A stretch of DNA of 50,522 nucleotides from Oscillospiraceae bacterium (lineage in GTDB: Bacteria; Bacillota; Clostridia; Oscillospirales; Oscillospiraceae). This document shows positions 3,434 through 30,181 of the stretch, in pieces. Position 1 is the stretch's first letter; each line of letters opens with the position of its first letter. The notes under the pieces are model-generated. The model ran no database searches. It was not told the DNA's origin and worked only from the letters and a program-made list of their open reading frames with translations. Both the position numbers and the translations under genes were made by a program. The stretch is taken from positions 1-50,522 of the forward strand of contig JAGARK010000010.1 of the NCBI GenBank assembly GCA_017622295.1, given 5' to 3'.

Positions 3434-4630
3434 TCAAAGTCCGATCTCCTTATATATCCGCTTCAGCTTCAGTACCTTTTCCTCGTCGGCAGTGAGAATG
3501 TCCTTCGTGTGGCCGGCAAAGCGGCCCCATTCTTTTCTGCTGTCGATCAGCCGTTGGGCCCAGGCAACCGGCAGCAGCCAGCGCTGCTTTTCGAGATAAG
3601 TATACTTGTTCGTCAGCACCTTTGCGGGAGGAAACGCGTGATACATCAGCGTTTTGAATCGGGAGACTTCCTCTTCATTGCGGTTCTGCTGCTTCAGAAA
3701 CACCGTTCCCCGATCCCGGCCCACATAGCCGTAGACACCGCCGGAGAGGGTGAACTCCAGGAAATCCTCCATCACTTCCTCCGCCACCGGCTCCGGCACG
3801 ATGGGACTTTCCACGCCGAACCAGCGCTCTACAGCTGACAGCGCCACATTGGCAAAATCTGTCAGGCAAAGCTTTTCCAGTTCGCCCCGGATCCAGTTCC
3901 AGTCGATGGAGTCGCCGAAATGGCGGATAAAGAAAGCCAGGTCCAGATACATCCGAATGCCTGCGCCGGAGGCGCTGATGTGCTTGGCGATATGAGTCAG
4001 CAGGTACAGGAAGTGAAATTCCGGTGTAAATTCCAACGCATGATTCAGCCCCACCACCTGAGCGGGACGCACATGCTCCCAAATATGACTGTAATAGTTT
4101 ACATAATCCGCCTTGTCGGAAACATCGATCTCCATCACATCGGTATGGATCTCGTAATACTCGCTCTCGCGCAGATAGGAATAGACCGGCTCCCAGGTAT
4201 CTCTGGGCTCGTAGCCCAGGGACTTCATCAGAACGTCGCTTCTTTCCCGGTCCGCCCTGCGGATCACAAAATCCACGTCGCTGAAGGTTCTGAATTCGGG
4301 GATCGGATAGTAATCCCGAACCACGAAGCCCTTGAACAGAATAAAATCGATTCCATTCCGGTCAAATTCCGCGGCCAGCTGCCGCATCAGATCGCTCCGC
4401 TGGGCATACAGCGCAATCTCCTGATGGCACAGCCGGCGCAGAGGAGGCCGCAGCTCCGCAGGTATCCGATCCGGGTGATTCATATATACAGAGCACAGGA
4501 TGCCAACAGTGGAATTGATATGCGCCAGGCTGATCAGGCTGTCCCATTCCTCTGCCCTGACAGGCTCCGGTGCCGTCCTCTGCACAAAGGAGCGCAGCGC
4601 GGACAGATATTTTAAAGAACTCTCGATCAT
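3434..4630 (-). CDS. Nucleotidyltransferase-fold protein (NTP_transf_5 type)
   Basis: This 398-residue cytoplasmic protein resembles the uncharacterised nucleotidyltransferase family often found in polysaccharide and peptide-natural-product loci. The recognisable core is FILFKGFVVRDYYP (Lys100-Gly101) followed by FSDVDFVI, whose Asp118-x-Asp120 pair would bind metal and nucleotide. The rest is helical and shows no domain I can name. It is the second gene of a two-gene minus-strand unit behind a GT2 (12-base gap) and ends in a terminator. A role in activating or tailoring a polysaccharide unit is inferred from position only. The donor and acceptor are unknown. Confidence 0.75.
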   Translation of the reverse strand: MIESSLKYLSALRSFVQRTAPEPVRAEEWDSLISLAHINSTVGILCSVYMNHPDRIPAELRPPLRRLCHQEIALYAQRSDLMRQLAAEFDRNGIDFILFKGFVVRDYYPIPEFRTFSDVDFVIRRADRERSDVLMKSLGYEPRDTWEPVYSYLRESEYYEIHTDVMEIDVSDKADYVNYYSHIWEHVRPAQVVGLNHALEFTPEFHFLYLLTHIAKHISASGAGIRMYLDLAFFIRHFGDSIDWNWIRGELEKLCLTDFANVALSAVERWFGVESPIVPEPVAEEVMEDFLEFTLSGGVYGYVGRDRGTVFLKQQNRNEEEVSRFKTLMYHAFPPAKVLTNKYTYLEKQRWLLPVAWAQRLIDSRKEWGRFAGHTKDILTADEEKVLKLKRIYKEIGL

Positions 4631-4642
4631 GCAATAACCTCA

Positions 4643-5608
4643 TCACCAGACTCTGCGCAGCAGCAGGTAGACCCGAATGGCCAGGCATGTCAGGGAAAAC
4701 CCAAACGCGCCATGAAATCTGGCGATCATCCTTGTTTTTTTGTCCAGTCCCCATTGCAGCAGGCGGACATTCTGCCGCAGGATTCGTTTCTTTTCCGCTG
4801 ACAGGCGGTGATAATTTCCCATGCAGATGCCGTATTCAAATGCCACCATGCCTGCCACCGCCCTTGGGTGGGCTGCACCGTCCCGGGCGGCATATTCGCC
4901 CCATTCCCGGACGATATTCACCAGATCATTGGGCCCATCGGGATGGCTGCTGCGGGATTCTCCCTTGTGCTGGGTGTAGGCGTAGGCATCCAGATTCAGC
5001 AGGCAGATGGTCTGTACATAGGAAAAAAGCTGCAGCACCCAGTCAATATCCTCGCCGATGATATCCTCCCGGAAGCGGATTTCGCGATTGACAAGCAGCT
5101 CCCGCCGGACGCATTTGTTGCAGGCGGAGGCCAGATTCTGGCCGTCCCGCACCAGATCCTGATAAATATCCTTTAGCGCCAGTACCGTATCTTCCTGACG
5201 GAACCGGGGCTTTGTATACCGGGTCAGAACATGACCGTCCTCGGTGACCTTCACCATTTGAAACATAAACGCATCCGCAGGCTCCGCGTCGATCCGGCGG
5301 TTCAGCTGCTCCAGAAGGTTCGGGCATACCCAGTAGTCATCCGCATCCATATAGAGGACGTACTCGCCCCGGGCCTGTGCCAGTCCGGCGTTTCTGGCCG
5401 CACCGGTGCCATGATGCGCCGTGGTCACCAGCTGAAACCGGTCATCCCGAGCGGCATATTCCGCCGCAACTGCGCTGCTGCCGTCGATAGAACCGTCGTC
5501 CACGATTACGGCCTGGTAATCACCAAAGGTCTGATTCAGAACACTCTGAAGGCATCTGTTCAGCGTTGCCTCGCCGTTATAAACCGGTATGATGATGGAT
5601 ATACGCAA
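4643..5608 (-). CDS. Family 2 glycosyltransferase
   Basis: A GT-A inverting glycosyltransferase of about 321 residues. It has the nucleotide-binding DDGS (37-40) and the metal-binding DADD (88-91). The C-terminal part beyond residue 250 is helical and weakly hydrophobic, so the protein may sit on the membrane. Start choice: a perfect AAAGGAGGT (acctcc on the plus strand at 5616-5621) lies 7 nt before the TTG at 5606-5608, and the product then begins MRISIIIPVYNG as family members do. The upstream ATG at 5641 would put this ribosome site inside the coding region. It is transcribed with the nucleotidyltransferase from its own promoter, divergent from the HTH-UDP-glucose dehydrogenase gene. Confidence 0.9.
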   Translation of the reverse strand: MRISIIIPVYNGEATLNRCLQSVLNQTFGDYQAVIVDDGSIDGSSAVAAEYAARDDRFQLVTTAHHGTGAARNAGLAQARGEYVLYMDADDYWVCPNLLEQLNRRIDAEPADAFMFQMVKVTEDGHVLTRYTKPRFRQEDTVLALKDIYQDLVRDGQNLASACNKCVRRELLVNREIRFREDIIGEDIDWVLQLFSYVQTICLLNLDAYAYTQHKGESRSSHPDGPNDLVNIVREWGEYAARDGAAHPRAVAGMVAFEYGICMGNYHRLSAEKKRILRQNVRLLQWGLDKKTRMIARFHGAFGFSLTCLAIRVYLLLRRVW

Positions 5609-5644
5609 AACAGATACCTCCTTTGTTTGTTTTTTCTCCAATTT

Positions 5645-5673
5645 AGTATAGCTTATTTTCTTGAAACTGACAA
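5645..5673 (-). promoter_or_regulatory. Promoter of the GT2-nucleotidyltransferase unit
   Basis: On the minus strand TTGTCA (5668-5673), a 17-nt spacer and TATACT (5645-5650). The start codon is about 40 nt downstream. Confidence 0.75.
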
Positions 5674-5681
5674 CCAGATTT

Positions 5682-5710
5682 TAAACCGTCATTTGTTCTT
5701 AAAAATAACA
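5682..5710. promoter_or_regulatory. Candidate operator between divergent polysaccharide promoters
   Basis: The 12-mer TAAACCGTCATT (5682-5693) also occurs exactly at 30142-30153 in the promoter of the main polysaccharide operon. Directly next to it is an imperfect palindrome, TGTTCTTAAAAATAACA (5694-5710). Both lie between the two divergent -35 boxes, where a regulator could control both directions. The binding protein is not known. The HTH domain of the adjacent fusion protein is a candidate. Confidence 0.4.
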
Positions 5711-5734
5711 GCATGCGCTCGCATTCGTTCCCTG

Positions 5735-5763
5735 TTGACTTTCTGTGTTATATTTTGTATCAT
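5735..5763 (+). promoter_or_regulatory. Promoter of the HTH-UDP-glucose dehydrogenase gene
   Basis: TTGACT (5735-5740), a 17-nt spacer and TATCAT (5758-5763), with GAGGT before the ATG at 5821. The promoter and ribosome site lie upstream of the HTH-coding part, which supports translation of the whole fusion. Confidence 0.8.
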
Positions 5764-5820
5764 AGTTTTTAGATTTTTGCTATTTTCGTTGTATTCAGCA
5801 ACAAACTGTGAGGTTAATAT

Positions 5821-7296
5821 ATGACTGTTTTTTCCATTGAACGTCTTTCTGAGATCCTATCCGGCAGGCGGCGCACCCTGAAGCTGAGCCAGGCCGAGCT
5901 GTCTAAGCTGACGGGCCTGAATCGGGCTACCATCAGCAAGATCGAGCAGAAGGACTACACCCCTTCCATCCCCCAGCTGCAGGCCCTGAGCCAGGCGCTG
6001 CATTTTGATATCACCGAGATCTTTGTTGAAGAGAAGGCCCCTGCCGCAGCAAAGGCCTGTCCTGCCAGAAAGTTCAACATCGCCGTAGCGGGCACCGGCT
6101 ATGTAGGCTTGTCCATCGCCACATTGCTGGCCCAGCACAACCGCGTCACCGCCGTGGACATCATCCCCGAAAAGGTGGCACTGATCAACGACCGCAAGTC
6201 CCACATTCAGGATGAGTACATCGAGAAGTATCTGGCAGAGAAGGACCTGGACCTGACGGCCACCCTGGACGGCGCTGCCGCCTATGCTGATGCGGATTTT
6301 GTGGTCATCGCCGCACCCACCAATTACGACAGCAAGAAGAACTTCTTCGACTGCTCCGCCGTGGAGGCTGTCATCGAGCTGGTTCTGAAGGTCAACCCCA
6401 AGGCCATCATGGTCATCAAGTCCACCATTCCCGTGGGCTATACCGCCTTTGTCCGGGAGAAGTACCATACCGGAAACATCATCTTCAGCCCCGAATTCCT
6501 GCGGGAATCCAAGGCTCTGTACGATAACCTCTACCCCTCCCGGATCATCGTCAGCTGTGACGATGAAACCGCCGAAGCCGCTCACACCTTTGCTGCGCTG
6601 CTGCAGCAGGGGGCCATCAAGGAGGATATCGACACCCTCTTTATGGGCTTTACCGAAGCGGAAGCCGTCAAGCTCTTCGCCAACACCTATCTGGCCCTCC
6701 GGGTCTCCTACTTCAATGAGCTGGATACCTATGCCGAATCTAAGGGCCTGAACACCCGGCAGATCATCGACGGTGTATGCCTGGATCCCCGCATCGGCAG
6801 CCACTACAACAACCCCTCCTTCGGCTATGGCGGCTATTGCCTGCCCAAGGACACCAAGCAGCTGCTGGCCAACTTCCGGGATGTGCCTGAGAATCTGATC
6901 CAGGCCATCGTGGAATCCAACCGCACCCGCAAGGACTTCATCGCCGACCGGGTCCTGGAGATCGCCGGCGGTTACGAAGCCAATGATCACTGGGACATCA
7001 CCCGGGAGAAAGAGGTAGTGGTAGGCGTATACCGCCTGACTATGAAGCAGGGCTCCGACAATTTCCGCCAGTCCTCCATCCAGGGCGTTATGAAGCGCAT
7101 CAAGGCCAAGGGCGCCACCGTGGTCATCTATGAGCCCACCCTGCCCGCAGGCTCCACCTTCTTCGGCAGCCGGGTCATCGGCGACCTGAAGGAGTTCAAG
7201 ACCGTTTCTCAGGCCATCATCGCCAATCGTTATGATGCCTGCCTGGACGACGTTGCTGACAAGGTCTACACCCGTGACATCTTCCGCAGAGATTAA
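5821..7296 (+). CDS. UDP-glucose 6-dehydrogenase fused to an N-terminal XRE-type HTH domain
   Basis: Residues about 9-68 form a Cro/C1-type helix-turn-helix ([22 protein letters not shown]). A short Ala/Pro-rich linker (70-83) follows, then a complete UDP-glucose dehydrogenase from about 85 to 491. The enzyme part has the NAD motif GTGYVGLS (91-98) and the catalytic cysteine in [11 protein letters not shown] (Cys340). Stand-alone enzymes of this type are about 390-410 residues, so nothing is missing and the HTH is extra. The enzyme oxidises UDP-glucose to UDP-glucuronate with two NAD+, and the next gene encodes the matching 4-epimerase. No internal start codon with a ribosome site separates the two domains. 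I infer a dual enzyme and DNA-binding regulator that could report precursor or NAD state to polysaccharide promoters. The enzyme call is secure; the regulatory role is untested. Confidence 0.93.
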
Positions 7297-7307
7297 GGAG
7301 ATACGCC

Positions 7308-8393
7308 ATGCAGAAAATTGATTTGCAGAATAAAACCGTATTTGTCACCGGCGGCATTGGCTTCATCGGTGCCAACCTGATCCTGAAGCTGCTGCGTGAA
7401 GTAGAGCCCATCACCATCGTGTCCGTGGACAACCGCTCCGACTACTACGACGTTTCCATCAAGGACTGGCGTCTGGAGGAAATCAAAAAGGAGGCTGCAA
7501 AGCATCCCGCCTCTTCCTTTGAATTCATCCTGGGCGATATCTCCGACCGGGCCCTCATTGACGAGGTTTTTGCCCGGTTCCAGCCCGATGTGGTGGTAAA
7601 TCTGGCCGCCCAGGCCGGTGTCCGCTACTCCATCGAAAACCCCGACGCCTATATCCAGTCCAATATCATCGGCTTCTACAACATTCTCGAAGCCTGCCGC
7701 CACTCCTATAACGGCGGCAAGAAGGGCGTGGAGCATCTGGTGTATGCCTCCTCTTCCTCCGTCTACGGTACCAACAAGAAGATTCCCTACTCCACCGAAG
7801 ACAAGGTGGACAATCCCGTGTCCCTCTACGCCGCCACCAAGAAGAGCAACGAGCTGTTTGCTCACTCCTACTCCAAGCTCTACAACATTCCCTCCACCGG
7901 TCTGCGGTTCTTCACTGTCTACGGCCCCGCTGGGCGGCCCGACATGGCCTACTTCGGTTTCACCAACAAGCTGTTGGGGGGCAAGACCATCGAGATCTTC
8001 AACTACGGCAACTGCCGCCGGGACTTCACCTATGTGGATGACATTGTGGAGGGTGTCATGCGGGTCATGCAGGGTGCCCCCGATCAGGCCACCGGCGAAG
8101 ACGGCCTGCCCCTGCCCCCCTACGCGGTCTACAACATCGGCAACTCTGCTCCTGAGAATCTGCTGGATTTTGTCCAGATCCTCCAGGAGGAGCTGATTCG
8201 GGCAGAGGTTCTTCCTGCCGACTATGACTTTGAGGCCCACAAGAAGCTGGTCCCCATGCAGGCTGGCGACGTGCCCGTGACTTATGCGGATACCGAACCC
8301 TTGGAGCGGGACTTCGGCTTCAAGCCCGCCACTTCTCTGAGAGAGGGTTTGCGCAAGTTCGCCCAGTGGTATAAAGAATTTTACAAAATCTAA
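7308..8393 (+). CDS. UDP-glucuronate 4-epimerase (SDR family)
   Basis: An extended short-chain dehydrogenase of 361 residues. It has the N-terminal Rossmann motif TGGIGFIG (about 15-22), the active-site YAATK (Tyr-x-x-x-Lys), and the DNRSDYYD and RDFTYVDD segments typical of NAD-dependent UDP-glucuronate/galacturonate epimerases. It would convert UDP-glucuronate, made by the preceding gene, to UDP-galacturonate in the cytoplasm. AAGGAG precedes its ATG, 11 bases after the dehydrogenase stop, so the two form an operon. Length is normal. Specificity for glucuronate rather than glucose is inferred from the neighbour and overall resemblance. A general GalE-type activity is the main alternative. 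Confidence 0.88.
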   Translation: MQKIDLQNKTVFVTGGIGFIGANLILKLLREVEPITIVSVDNRSDYYDVSIKDWRLEEIKKEAAKHPASSFEFILGDISDRALIDEVFARFQPDVVVNLAAQAGVRYSIENPDAYIQSNIIGFYNILEACRHSYNGGKKGVEHLVYASSSSVYGTNKKIPYSTEDKVDNPVSLYAATKKSNELFAHSYSKLYNIPSTGLRFFTVYGPAGRPDMAYFGFTNKLLGGKTIEIFNYGNCRRDFTYVDDIVEGVMRVMQGAPDQATGEDGLPLPPYAVYNIGNSAPENLLDFVQILQEELIRAEVLPADYDFEAHKKLVPMQAGDVPVTYADTEPLERDFGFKPATSLREGLRKFAQWYKEFYKI

Positions 8394-27563: not shown

Positions 27564-28715
27564 TTACTGTTCCTCTTCAAACATTTGAAAGACAGATGCA
27601 TACTGTCCTTCCCAGGTCATGTATTTCTCAGCATAATCCCGGAGCTTCCGGGTATGCGCCTTGTCGGTGCGCATTTTCAGAGCAAAATTTACGATTTGAT
27701 TCATATCCGGGATCGTATCATCATTAGGGACCCTGATCCAGAATTCTTCCGTTGCGAAGGCAAATGCAGGATCCTCCACCGAACAGACAAAGGGAAGACC
27801 CCGTGCAGCGTACTCCCGGATCTTCAATTCGGATGTGGCATCCATATTCTTCCGATACAATCCCAGAGAGTTGATGCCGATGTCGCACAGATTAAACATC
27901 GTCGTCAGATCGTCTCCGTACAGTTTTCCGTGGAAAATGACCCGATCTTCCAGTTCCAGGTCGGACACCAGCTTCTTCCACTCCGGCAGCATGCCGCCAT
28001 CGTTGCCGCCCACCATATGGATCATTACTCTCTGTCCTCCGGTGTACTGCCGCAACGATTTGATCAGCCGATCATAACCATGCCAGTAACTCATGGACGC
28101 CAACGCCAGAATATGCACCGCGTCGGTATTTTCCCGGGGGCTTCTCAGAGGCATCGCATCCACATTGACGCCGTTGTCAATGTTTATGGCAGGCTTTCCA
28201 TAGAAGGTATCGAAATCCGCATCACCGGTGAAAATGAACGCATCGGGATAACGCATCAATTCCTGCTTCCACAGGTTCGCATACAGGGAAAATATTCTTC
28301 TCGGAATGCTCATGGCCGTTTCGCCGCCCTTGCAGTAGGTGGGAATCTCATAGATGATTTTCGTACCCGCCTTATGAGCGGTACGGCCCACGGTGCAGGA
28401 GCTGCGCCAGATGGGGGCGTCCCGCCAGTAGATGAAATCAAAACGGAGCTTCTCCATGGCTTTCAGCGCCGCCATGTGCATATCATAGTACACCCTGGTA
28501 TGGAAATACATGGGCATATGCGATGCGGCCCTGCCGATTGCTTCCTTCTCCCCCTCATGAACCAGGTAAAAGTATTCCTTGTCAAATACCAGATGGTATA
28601 CGTCCAGATTCAGCTTCCGGAAGGCCGCCAACTGGCCGTCAAACTTTCCCCGGAGGTTAAAATCCTCATAAATGGGGTATCTGACAATATATAAAAGTTT
28701 CTTCTTTTCAGTCAT
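27564..28715 (-). CDS. Glycosyltransferase, GT4-like
   Basis: 383 residues, GT-B-like. The N-terminus is KKLLYIVRYPIYEDFNLRGKFDGQL, the linker YEIPTYCKGGE, the donor domain VHILALASMSYWHGYDRLIKSL and the C-terminal KIREYAARGLPFVCSVEDPAF, where the usual EX7E is altered (SELKIREYAARGLP). It may belong to a divergent GT family. Start: ATG 28713-28715 overlaps the stop of the dehydrogenase (TAATG) behind GGTGGAGA. Function in the pathway is unassigned. Confidence 0.8.
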   Translation of the reverse strand: MTEKKKLLYIVRYPIYEDFNLRGKFDGQLAAFRKLNLDVYHLVFDKEYFYLVHEGEKEAIGRAASHMPMYFHTRVYYDMHMAALKAMEKLRFDFIYWRDAPIWRSSCTVGRTAHKAGTKIIYEIPTYCKGGETAMSIPRRIFSLYANLWKQELMRYPDAFIFTGDADFDTFYGKPAINIDNGVNVDAMPLRSPRENTDAVHILALASMSYWHGYDRLIKSLRQYTGGQRVMIHMVGGNDGGMLPEWKKLVSDLELEDRVIFHGKLYGDDLTTMFNLCDIGINSLGLYRKNMDATSELKIREYAARGLPFVCSVEDPAFAFATEEFWIRVPNDDTIPDMNQIVNFALKMRTDKAHTRKLRDYAEKYMTWEGQYASVFQMFEEEQ

Positions 28716-30046
28716 TACAATCTCCACCAGGTCATGCCGGATTCTTTCAGATCAGCGATGGGGTACAGGCCCTTCACATCGATAAGCACCTTCTCGCTGT
28801 CCTTGAGCCCGGCGCGGAACATCTTATTGAGCTCGTCCAGCTTCATTTCCCGGAATTCATTATGAGCAACCGCAACGATCACACAGTCAGCGTCCCGCAC
28901 ATTCTCCAGAGCGGTCAGAGTCACGCCATACTCATGCATGGCGTCCCGGGCGTTGGCCCAGGGATCGACAACGGTGGGTTCAATTCCATACTCACCCAGA
29001 CGCTTGATGATGTCATCCACCTTACTGTTGCGGGTGTCGGGGCAGTTTTCCTTGAAGGTCAGGCCCAGAATCACCACATGGGCCTTCCTGGGGGCCAGAC
29101 CGGCATTCACCATCTGCTTGATGGCGGCATCGGCCACAAACTGGCCCATAGAGTCGTTGACAATACGGCCGTTGAGAATGATCTGGCTGTGATAGCCCAG
29201 CTTCTCAGCCTCATAGGTAAAGTAATAGGGATCCACGCCGATGCAGTGACCGCCCACCAGACCCGGGCGGAAGCCCAAGGCATTCCATTTGGTGTTCATA
29301 CCGTCCACCACTTCATTGGTGTCAATGCCCATGCGGTCAAAAACCATGGCCAGCTCGTTCATAAAGGCGATGTTGATGTCGCGCTGGCTGTTCTCCACGA
29401 CCTTGACAGCCTCGGCGGTCTTGATGCTGGAAACTGGATAGGTGCCCACTTCAATGACCAGGTCATAGACGCTCCTGATTTCCTCCAGAGACTCGGCATC
29501 CATGCCGGAAACGATCTTGCGGATATTTTCCAGGCGGTGGACCTTGTCACCGGGGTTGATGCGTTCGGGGGAATAACCCACCTTGAAATCCACACCCGCC
29601 TTCAGACCGGACTGCTTCTCCAGGATGGGAATGCAGACATCCTCGGTGACGCCGGGATAGACGGTGGATTCGTAGACCACGATGGCGCCTTTTTTCAGGT
29701 TCCGGCCCACGATCTCGCTGGCGCCGACGACGGGCGTCAGGTCGGGGGTATGGTCGGTGTTGATGGGGGTGGGAACCGCAACGATGAAGAATTCCGCCTC
29801 CTGAAGGCGCTTTTCGTCGGCGGTAAACTGCACCGCAGTGGTACGGATAGCCTCGTTGCCCACCTCGTTAGTGGGATCAATGCCGGATTTATAGAGTTCG
29901 ATTTTCGCCTCGTTCAGGTCGAAACCGATGACGTTCAGTCCCTTGTTCGCAAATGCGACGGCAATGGGCATGCCCACATAGCCCAGACCGACCAGTGCCA
30001 GGGATGTTTCTTTATTCCGCAATCTGTTATAAACTGTTGCTTCCAT
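28715..30046 (-). CDS. UDP-N-acetyl-hexosamine 6-dehydrogenase (WbpA/WbpO/TviB type)
   Basis: 443 residues of the nucleotide-sugar dehydrogenase family: NAD motif GLGYVG (20-25), YESTVYPGVTE, SPERINPGD, and catalytic cysteine Cys268 in GGHCIGVDPYYF. These spellings are those of enzymes that oxidise UDP-GlcNAc or UDP-GalNAc, unlike the UDP-glucose enzyme at 5821. It makes the N-acetylated uronic acid that the WbpB- and WbpE-like enzymes would use. Start: the ATG 30044-30046 has GGAG nine bases upstream; the ATG 15 bases earlier has no ribosome site. It is the first gene of the 21-gene operon. Confidence 0.93.
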   Translation of the reverse strand: MEATVYNRLRNKETSLALVGLGYVGMPIAVAFANKGLNVIGFDLNEAKIELYKSGIDPTNEVGNEAIRTTAVQFTADEKRLQEAEFFIVAVPTPINTDHTPDLTPVVGASEIVGRNLKKGAIVVYESTVYPGVTEDVCIPILEKQSGLKAGVDFKVGYSPERINPGDKVHRLENIRKIVSGMDAESLEEIRSVYDLVIEVGTYPVSSIKTAEAVKVVENSQRDINIAFMNELAMVFDRMGIDTNEVVDGMNTKWNALGFRPGLVGGHCIGVDPYYFTYEAEKLGYHSQIILNGRIVNDSMGQFVADAAIKQMVNAGLAPRKAHVVILGLTFKENCPDTRNSKVDDIIKRLGEYGIEPTVVDPWANARDAMHEYGVTLTALENVRDADCVIVAVAHNEFREMKLDELNKMFRAGLKDSEKVLIDVKGLYPIADLKESGMTWWRL

Positions 30047-30116
30047 GTATGTCGTCTCCATTTACAAATGATTATGCAAGCTAAAATGCCCATACAATCC
30101 CATTATTTCATCTTAT

Positions 30117-30153
30117 ATTATAGTACAACCTACCGGAAATGTAAACCGTCATT
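30117..30153 (-). promoter_or_regulatory. Promoter of the 21-gene polysaccharide operon
   Basis: On the minus strand TTTACA (30140-30145), a 17-nt spacer and TATAAT (30117-30122). The -35 overlaps the 12-mer TAAACCGTCATT (plus strand 30142-30153), which recurs at 5682-5693. A related copy (GAAAGCTGTCATT, 30161-30173) follows exactly 20 bases further on, so two binding sites on one helix face are possible. Confidence 0.8.
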
Positions 30154-30181
30154 CCGTACAGAAAGCTGTCATTTATGCAAG

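Follow-up and report, generated by a model that had tools for sequence, protein, structure and literature searches.

Organisation of the locus

The stretch of DNA analysed here (50,522 bases; hereafter the window) carries on its forward strand a gene that joins an XRE-type helix-turn-helix (HTH) domain in frame to a complete UDP-glucose dehydrogenase (UGDH). The gene, its parts, its upstream elements and its two neighbours are given below, with the basis on which each was placed in brackets.

4643..5641, - strand: divergent glycosyltransferase family 2 gene, with a 179-bp upstream region in common with the fusion gene (ORF and Pfam)
5694..5710, + strand: candidate distal operator TGTTCTTAAAAATAACA, 17.5 bits, the best match in the whole window (matrix scan)
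5735..5740, + strand: -35 box TTGACT (best promoter of a crude scan)
5746..5762, + strand: weak candidate operator TGTTATATTTTGTATCA, 10.7 bits, second best in the window, between the -35 and -10 boxes (matrix scan)
5758..5763, + strand: -10 box TATCAT, after a 17-bp spacer from the -35 box (best promoter of a crude scan)
5787..5803, + strand: degenerate proximal candidate operator CGTTGTATTCAGCAACA, 8.2 bits, third best in the window (matrix scan)
5810..5813, + strand: ribosome-binding site GAGG, 7 nt 5' of the ATG (read from the sequence)
5821..7296, + strand: HTH-UGDH fusion gene, 491 amino acids, ATG start (ORF and domain searches)
5869..6021, + strand: XRE-type HTH, residues 17-67 (Pfam HTH_3)
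5920..5946, + strand: recognition-helix region, residues 34-42, with Ala36 and Ser39 tied to operator letters (co-variation)
6025..6075, + strand: variable linker, residues 69-85 (consensus of 49 fused proteins mostly x)
6076..7293, + strand: UGDH part, residues 86-491 (domain searches and structure-sequence alignment)
6838..6840, + strand: Cys340 codon (aligned to Cys260 of the S. pyogenes UGDH; invariant in 49 fused proteins)
7308..8393, + strand: epimerase/dehydratase-family gene, 11 bp downstream of the fusion gene (ORF and domain searches)

The HTH_3 match of the window protein scores 39.8 bits against a Pfam cut-off of 23, which identifies the N-terminal part as an XRE domain, and is followed in order by the UDPG_MGDP_dh_N (residues 86-253), central (279-368) and C-terminal (402-478) UGDH domains, all above their cut-offs. 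HTH_3 and the three UGDH domains were matched in all the 49 fused proteins compared (the window's own and 48 relatives; E<=0.001 for the UGDH domains), and R17, E42, P48, Q52 and L60 of the HTH are invariant among them. The recognition helix is presumed to lie at residues 34-42 from the HTH_3 alignment and the general structure of XRE domains. The first-pass annotation of this DNA had described an in-frame fusion of an XRE-type HTH with a complete UGDH carrying Cys340, preceded by a promoter and a ribosome site and devoid of an internal start, and the ORF, Pfam and alignment data agree on each point: TTGACT, TATCAT and GAGG all lie upstream of the ATG, and the HTH/enzyme junction holds no in-frame ATG, GTG or TTG codon, the first later in-frame ATG being that of Met197. 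The HTH, which it had placed at about residues 9-68, is present with narrower limits, the Pfam core being 17-67.

Residues 85-491 align to the short-type UGDHs of K. pneumoniae (3pid/3phl) and S. pyogenes (1dli), the best solved relatives. The 1dli residues used for the comparison (T118, E141, E145, K204, N208, R244, C260 and D264), whose catalytic roles, including that of Cys260, are assumed here, have T202, E225, E229, K284, N288, R324, C340 and D344 as their counterparts in the window protein, and all eight aligned positions are invariant in the 49 fused proteins. The protein falls within the NCBIfam nucleotide sugar dehydrogenase model TIGR03026 (296.5 bits against a cut-off of 189.8); the best-scoring NCBIfam model is the equivalog NF011631 (PRK15057), under which the protein was not filed because its 575.7 bits lie below the cut-off of 757. 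From the conserved domains and active-site residues, the C-terminal part is predicted to oxidise UDP-glucose to UDP-glucuronate, and the gene at 7308-8393 is probably a UDP-glucuronate epimerase, to go by its predicted specificity, within the transcript of the fusion gene. A second nucleotide-sugar dehydrogenase, without an HTH, is encoded in the polysaccharide cluster of the window (28715-30061, - strand); its product is closest to the TviB-type UDP-GlcNAc 6-dehydrogenase, with a score of 458 bits where the equivalog requires 592.

Occurrence and ancestry of the fusion

A GTDB scan with a capped list found the fusion in 44 of the best 80 loci, with carriers in Lachnospiraceae, Veillonella, Anaerococcus, Acetitomaculum, Mogibacterium, Ligilactobacillus, Enterococcus and others. 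Loci were counted as fused where the match began at residue 20 or earlier (L052, whose N-terminus reads N, was left unjudged), and the fused list totals 47 with the addition of the window's own copy (L001) and of L090 and L092. Two of the carriers, named as Alphaproteobacteria (L013) and Spirochaetales (L039), are metagenome bins and may be misbinned. On plasmids, four among the best 15 of 818 matching records cover the HTH (two from E. faecalis, one from E. hirae and one from Butyrivibrio). A sequencing or assembly join as the source of the fusion was rejected because the same fusion recurs in these GTDB loci and on the Enterococcus and Butyrivibrio plasmids. The annotated plasmid copies are named 'nucleotide sugar dehydrogenase', a label that conceals the DNA-binding half of the protein. 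None of the phage matches listed (15 of 38 matching phage records) covers the HTH, and a phage origin of the fusion was rejected on that count.

Within the window's own family, a close UGDH was found in 38 of 300 genomes and the match extends into the HTH in four of the 38; in the family of strain KH1T2, the HTH model was matched in 43 of 397 genomes, three of the 43 being stand-alone HTHs and one an unrelated XRE protein. In a tree of UGDH parts (143 of 149 rows, many inner branches being poorly supported), 54 of the 55 fused rows fall into one 67-row group (support 94) together with 13 unfused rows, and the fused/unfused label changes eight times, against 44.1 in shuffles. This clustering and the small number of label changes suggest one or few fusion events, followed by losses and horizontal spread.

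Some individual loci are worth describing. On the Enterococcus plasmids L146 and L148, transposase genes and surface-polysaccharide genes are found near the fused gene and the operator described below is kept in 11 of its 12 consensus letters, a setting that points to mobility of the fused gene. Fused and unfused ugd genes occur in one locus in L018 (about 4512-7428) and in L047, the L018 pair being divergent and sharing an operator region. In Ligilactobacillus agilis (L174, 1318-2463), an HTH in a 101-residue frame is followed by a UGDH piece, which is probably a decayed second HTH-UGDH copy.

A putative palindromic operator upstream of the fused genes

The upstream regions of the fused genes have in common a 17-bp palindrome, TGTTATTTnAAATAACA, that was first spotted on reading them side by side. 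An early count, with a consensus chosen by eye in the same data, gave 27 of 46 fused against 2 of 61 unfused genes (the fused L026 and the unfused L081 having been excluded for too little upstream DNA) and is superseded by a de novo motif search, a leave-one-out test and 30 later genes. For the de novo search, near-identical upstream regions were dropped, which reduced 54 fused regions to 50 and 89 unfused ones to 82. The fused set returned aTGTTATTTttAATAACATTt with a log-likelihood of 252, against 64-71 in three shuffles, none of which gave anything resembling the palindrome, while the unfused ugd set returned ATGCAGCCgGGnGATGT instead, read as coding sequence. The 50 training regions include L127, L130, L146 and L147, which had earlier served as a first held-out check and are therefore no longer held out.

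Sites were then scored with a symmetric 17-bp matrix within 300 bp upstream. At a score of at least 10, a site precedes 42 of the 50 fused genes (in-sample) and 3 of the 89 unfused ugd genes. One of these three, L018, has its site in the divergent region shared with a fused gene. L079, an unfused ugd gene with a site, was rejected as a regulated partner, its site probably being due to chance because, by eye, it apparently lies inside the end of the neighbouring gene. The leave-one-out test retained a site at p<=0.02 for 41 of the 50 fused genes. Sites scoring at least 14 number 45 in the 14.8 kb upstream of fused genes. The remaining 490 kb of the same loci hold six, a pair of which lie just past 300 bp, and the 599 kb of unfused loci hold three. 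Among 30 fused genes outside the training set, 27 have a site at 10 or above, 21 at 12 or above and 18 at 14 or above, against 2.5%, 0.65% and 0.23% in shuffles, figures to be read with the caveat that AT-rich DNA inflates chance matches and that related genes are non-independent. This set excludes five training duplicates, four stand-alone or unrelated HTHs and two second fetches (L192 and L205), and keeps L203, which is cut by a contig end, and L204. In L204 the fused frame is broken by a stop after residue 171, and operator-like sites of 14.3 and 11.5 bits still stand upstream. The strong sites near L003 and in L151 lie within ORFs.

In the window, only the site at 5694-5710 is strong by itself, a loose pattern being expected to give 1.28 chance matches per window. 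The weight lies on the clustering of the three highest-scoring sites among the 50,522 bases, which stand before, within and after the promoter inside one 110-bp stretch. Multiple sites are frequent elsewhere too: at a score of at least 11, two or three are found in 26 of the 50 training genes, one in 15 and none in nine. A helical period of 10.5 bp is not apparent in their spacing (p=0.35), and the p=0.003 found at 11.0 bp comes from one of five periods tried, so that phasing lends no support to bridging of two operators.

The positions of the sites bear on the direction of the control. A promoter was predicted for 47 of the 50 genes, and 34 of the 70 sites in these genes lie upstream of the -35 box, where they would fit an HTH that activates transcription, or that switches between activation and repression with the metabolite state, from a distal site. 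However, another 28 lie past the -10 box but before the start codon, and eight in the promoter core, which favours blocking, and the second site of the window overlaps its promoter; activation is thus regarded as unlikely.

Gene neighbourhood and regulatory scope

Neighbouring genes were counted for 45 of 47 loci downstream and 42 of 48 upstream, two and six having been taken out manually because they were probably overlap artefacts or fragments or were uncertain; the window's downstream neighbour was entered by hand as the epimerase at 7308, replacing an antisense ORF. The next downstream gene belongs to the epimerase family in 12 of the 45 fused loci and the other loci are mixed. Four of the 45 have a GHMP kinase and three a nucleotidyltransferase in this place, which together could provide a sugar-acid salvage route into the same UDP-sugar pool. 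By crude ORF picking, a same-strand gene lies within 60 bp upstream of 3 of 52 fused genes, compared with 61 of 88 unfused ones, and a divergent gene adjoins 33 of the 52 on the upstream side.

Such divergent neighbours, which share the operator region, are the genes above all expected under the control of a wider regulator that includes polysaccharide genes among its targets, as the first-pass annotation had envisaged; the neighbour is a glycosyltransferase in the window, and in L018 a divergent unfused ugd gene shares the operators. Against this, the upstream neighbours of the fused genes come from mixed families, and the window's polysaccharide cluster has no good site elsewhere: the best three sites of the window lie upstream of the fusion gene itself, and none of its 12 best operator matches falls in 30062-30180, the second region the first-pass annotation had singled out. 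In 20 carrier genomes, TGTTATTNNNAATAACA at no more than one mismatch gave 63 matches, against 50 for a reversed control. Thirteen of the 63, and likewise four of the five exact sites, lie upstream of a fused gene, which leaves 50 elsewhere, the same number as in the control. A wider regulon was rejected on this basis, and control of polysaccharide genes by the fused protein is considered decidedly unlikely. The window's own genome (2.0 Mb, 76% complete) contains three other near-matches. Two of them sit within ORFs, one of which looks transketolase-like by eye (L175; the other is L177), and the third, which does not mark the start of a gene, lies past the 3' end of an ORF that by eye resembles a kinase gene (L176). 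In the 20 carrier genomes, the fused proteins supply 20 of the 21 HTHs that match the fused-HTH model at E<=1e-12, the extra one being that of the 101-residue frame in L. agilis. Because same-strand upstream neighbours are few, the HTH of this model is single and near-matches elsewhere stay at the control level, the fused gene seems to form an independent unit that brings its own control.

Co-variation of operator letters and recognition helix

Among all pairings of an HTH residue with one of the eight half-site positions, compared over 38 genes, the top pair was that of residue 36 with position 4 (z 5.9; gene-level Fisher p=5e-4): position 4 is C in 17 of 22 half-sites of proteins with Gly36 and T in 84 of 98 with other residues. 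In the 30 new genes, C occupies at least half of the half-sites in 3 of 3 genes with Gly36 and 4 of 24 others (p=0.012), the link being weak at the level of half-sites, where those of Gly36 proteins are four C and four T. Residue 39 is Gly in 22 and Ser in 56 of 80 fused proteins. The Gly39 proteins gave a separate de novo motif, TGnTATTTaAAATAnCA (log-likelihood 80.6 against 24-30 in three shuffles), in which position 3 is T in 36%, compared with 91% for Ser39, and this motif accounts for several genes, L004, L005, L025 and L195 among them, which had first seemed to be without a strong site. When sites were picked blind to positions 2-4, both the Gly36 and the Gly39 trends were retained in weaker form, with T in both halves in 3 of 22 Gly39 and 26 of 56 Ser39 genes (p=0.009).

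When each class was scored with its own matrix, fitted to these very genes, a site at p<=0.02 was assigned to 72 of the 80 fused genes and to three or four of the 89 unfused ones. The eight without one in this in-sample count are L003, L029, L030, L035, L051, L066, L092 and L217, among which L030 and L035 are borderline (p 0.023 and 0.027) and L029 and L066 lie no more than 60 bp behind a same-strand gene.

That the fused HTH is a working regulator, probably one that reads the palindrome, is well supported by comparative sequence data. The regulatory role that the first-pass annotation had assigned to the HTH gains support from the conserved, co-varying operator upstream of the fused genes; the polysaccharide genes it had named as targets find no supporting sites. 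The palindrome might instead be bound by another regulator, such as Rex or an unfused XRE protein, with the fused HTH as a passenger. UGDH uses NAD, and the half-site resembles that of Rex, the operator of which, TTGTTAAnnnnTTAACAA, spans 18 bp. Yet the palindrome is 17 bp long with an odd centre, its sites are nearly restricted to fused genes, and 19 of the 20 carrier genomes have no second HTH of the model at E<=1e-12. Rex in particular is thought unlikely because the operator letters co-vary with residues of the fused HTH, and a separate binder of any kind is highly improbable. HTH folds can act as dimerisation modules, and the least probable reading is that the HTH has lost its DNA binding and persists for the sake of folding, dimerisation or localisation; its five invariant residues and the co-variation of the operator with the recognition helix speak against this.

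Stand-alone relatives of the HTH

Related HTHs, 38-44% identical to that of the window, occur in stand-alone XRE proteins of 115-121 amino acids at three loci (L206 3385-5304, L207 1600-3565 and L208 3060-4995), each next to a Peptidase_M78 (ImmA/IrrE-like) gene and to one more gene, whose copy in L206 has no Pfam match. An operator-like site of 15.4 bits lies 63 bp upstream of the L208 protein; of the other two, one has a site of 11.0 bits and one none at 10 or above. No further stand-alone copy was found in the 299 genomes searched of the family to which these loci belong. These three loci, on which the suggestion rests, hint that the HTH and its operator may have come together from an XRE/Peptidase_M78 module. 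In the window the neighbours of the fused gene are a glycosyltransferase and an epimerase, and among the relatives' neighbour families listed (the first 25 of 64 downstream and of 78 upstream) there is no Peptidase_M78.

Proposed mechanism

Acidic capsules, exopolysaccharides and polymers of the wall are made with UDP-glucuronate as a precursor, and to our knowledge the control of UDP-glucuronate supply in gut Firmicutes is little described. The gene in the window is proposed to encode a bifunctional enzyme and regulator that limits its own transcription via the upstream palindromes, a reading to which a probability of about 0.75 is assigned. The fused protein would most likely be a self-regulating 'trigger enzyme' acting as an autorepressor. 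It may dimerise through both its enzyme and HTH parts, so that paired XRE HTHs could bind the 17-bp palindrome or its lineage-specific variants. The operator is often doubled, with one copy 5' of the -35 box and the other past the -10 box but short of the ribosome site, the two perhaps being bridged by one complex. Binding is expected to repress transcription of the gene itself and, where co-transcribed, presumably of the epimerase, and such autorepression would place the supply of UDP-glucuronate under negative feedback. More speculatively, substrate, product or NAD(H) in the enzyme part might alter the DNA binding.

A fuller version, held tentatively and at somewhat less than even odds, is that of a widespread and horizontally moving one-gene circuit. 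Here UGDH would be its own sensor and repressor: its active site would detect UDP-glucose and UDP-glucuronate or NAD(H), and the protein would then let go of the two operators or bridge them, while within each lineage the recognition helix and its operator evolve together.

Comparison with known systems

The first-pass annotation knew of no characterised protein with an HTH-UGDH architecture, which is in line with the literature as far as titles and the openings of abstracts go, subscription journals being mostly outside this scope: no description of the fusion was found there. The fused protein, present in many gut bacteria, looks like a widespread self-regulating enzyme that has so far gone undescribed. 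A central enzyme that seems to carry its own regulator and a defined operator makes the link between metabolite and transcription accessible to experiments on a single protein and a short piece of DNA. Fused genes are spread over many lineages and show ties of operator letters to two positions of the recognition helix, and so constitute a natural data set on XRE specificity.

Each half of the protein has known counterparts. The short-type UGDHs (3pid/3phl and 1dli) align over nearly the whole chain with residues 85-491 and keep the active-site residues; they differ in that the match starts only at residue 85, and no HTH partner was matched in these structures. The HTH of the P22 c2-type repressor (2r1j, 1adr) matches residues 8-61 with an E-value of about 4e-4, P22 c2 being a free-standing repressor of a phage with no enzyme attached. 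The stand-alone XRE/ImmA-IrrE-like modules resemble the fused protein in their related HTH, with a strong operator-like site in one of three, and differ from it in having no enzyme part and a protease-like gene next door.

A DNA-binding domain and an enzyme are combined in NadR, which joins an HTH to a nucleotidyltransferase, and in PutA, which joins a ribbon-helix-helix to proline dehydrogenase. BirA, NadR, PepA, PutA and PyrH are the E. coli trigger enzymes, metabolic enzymes doubling as transcription factors, that are named in PMC8249747. UDP-glucose dehydrogenase is not among the five given there, and the regulation proposed here is deduced from sequence. By its domain content the fused protein is an enzyme with a DNA-binding domain, as a trigger enzyme may be, and it would share with the five a metabolic activity coupled to a role as a transcription factor. 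Membership of the class is not claimed; by analogy, the fused protein would work in the manner of these trigger enzymes.
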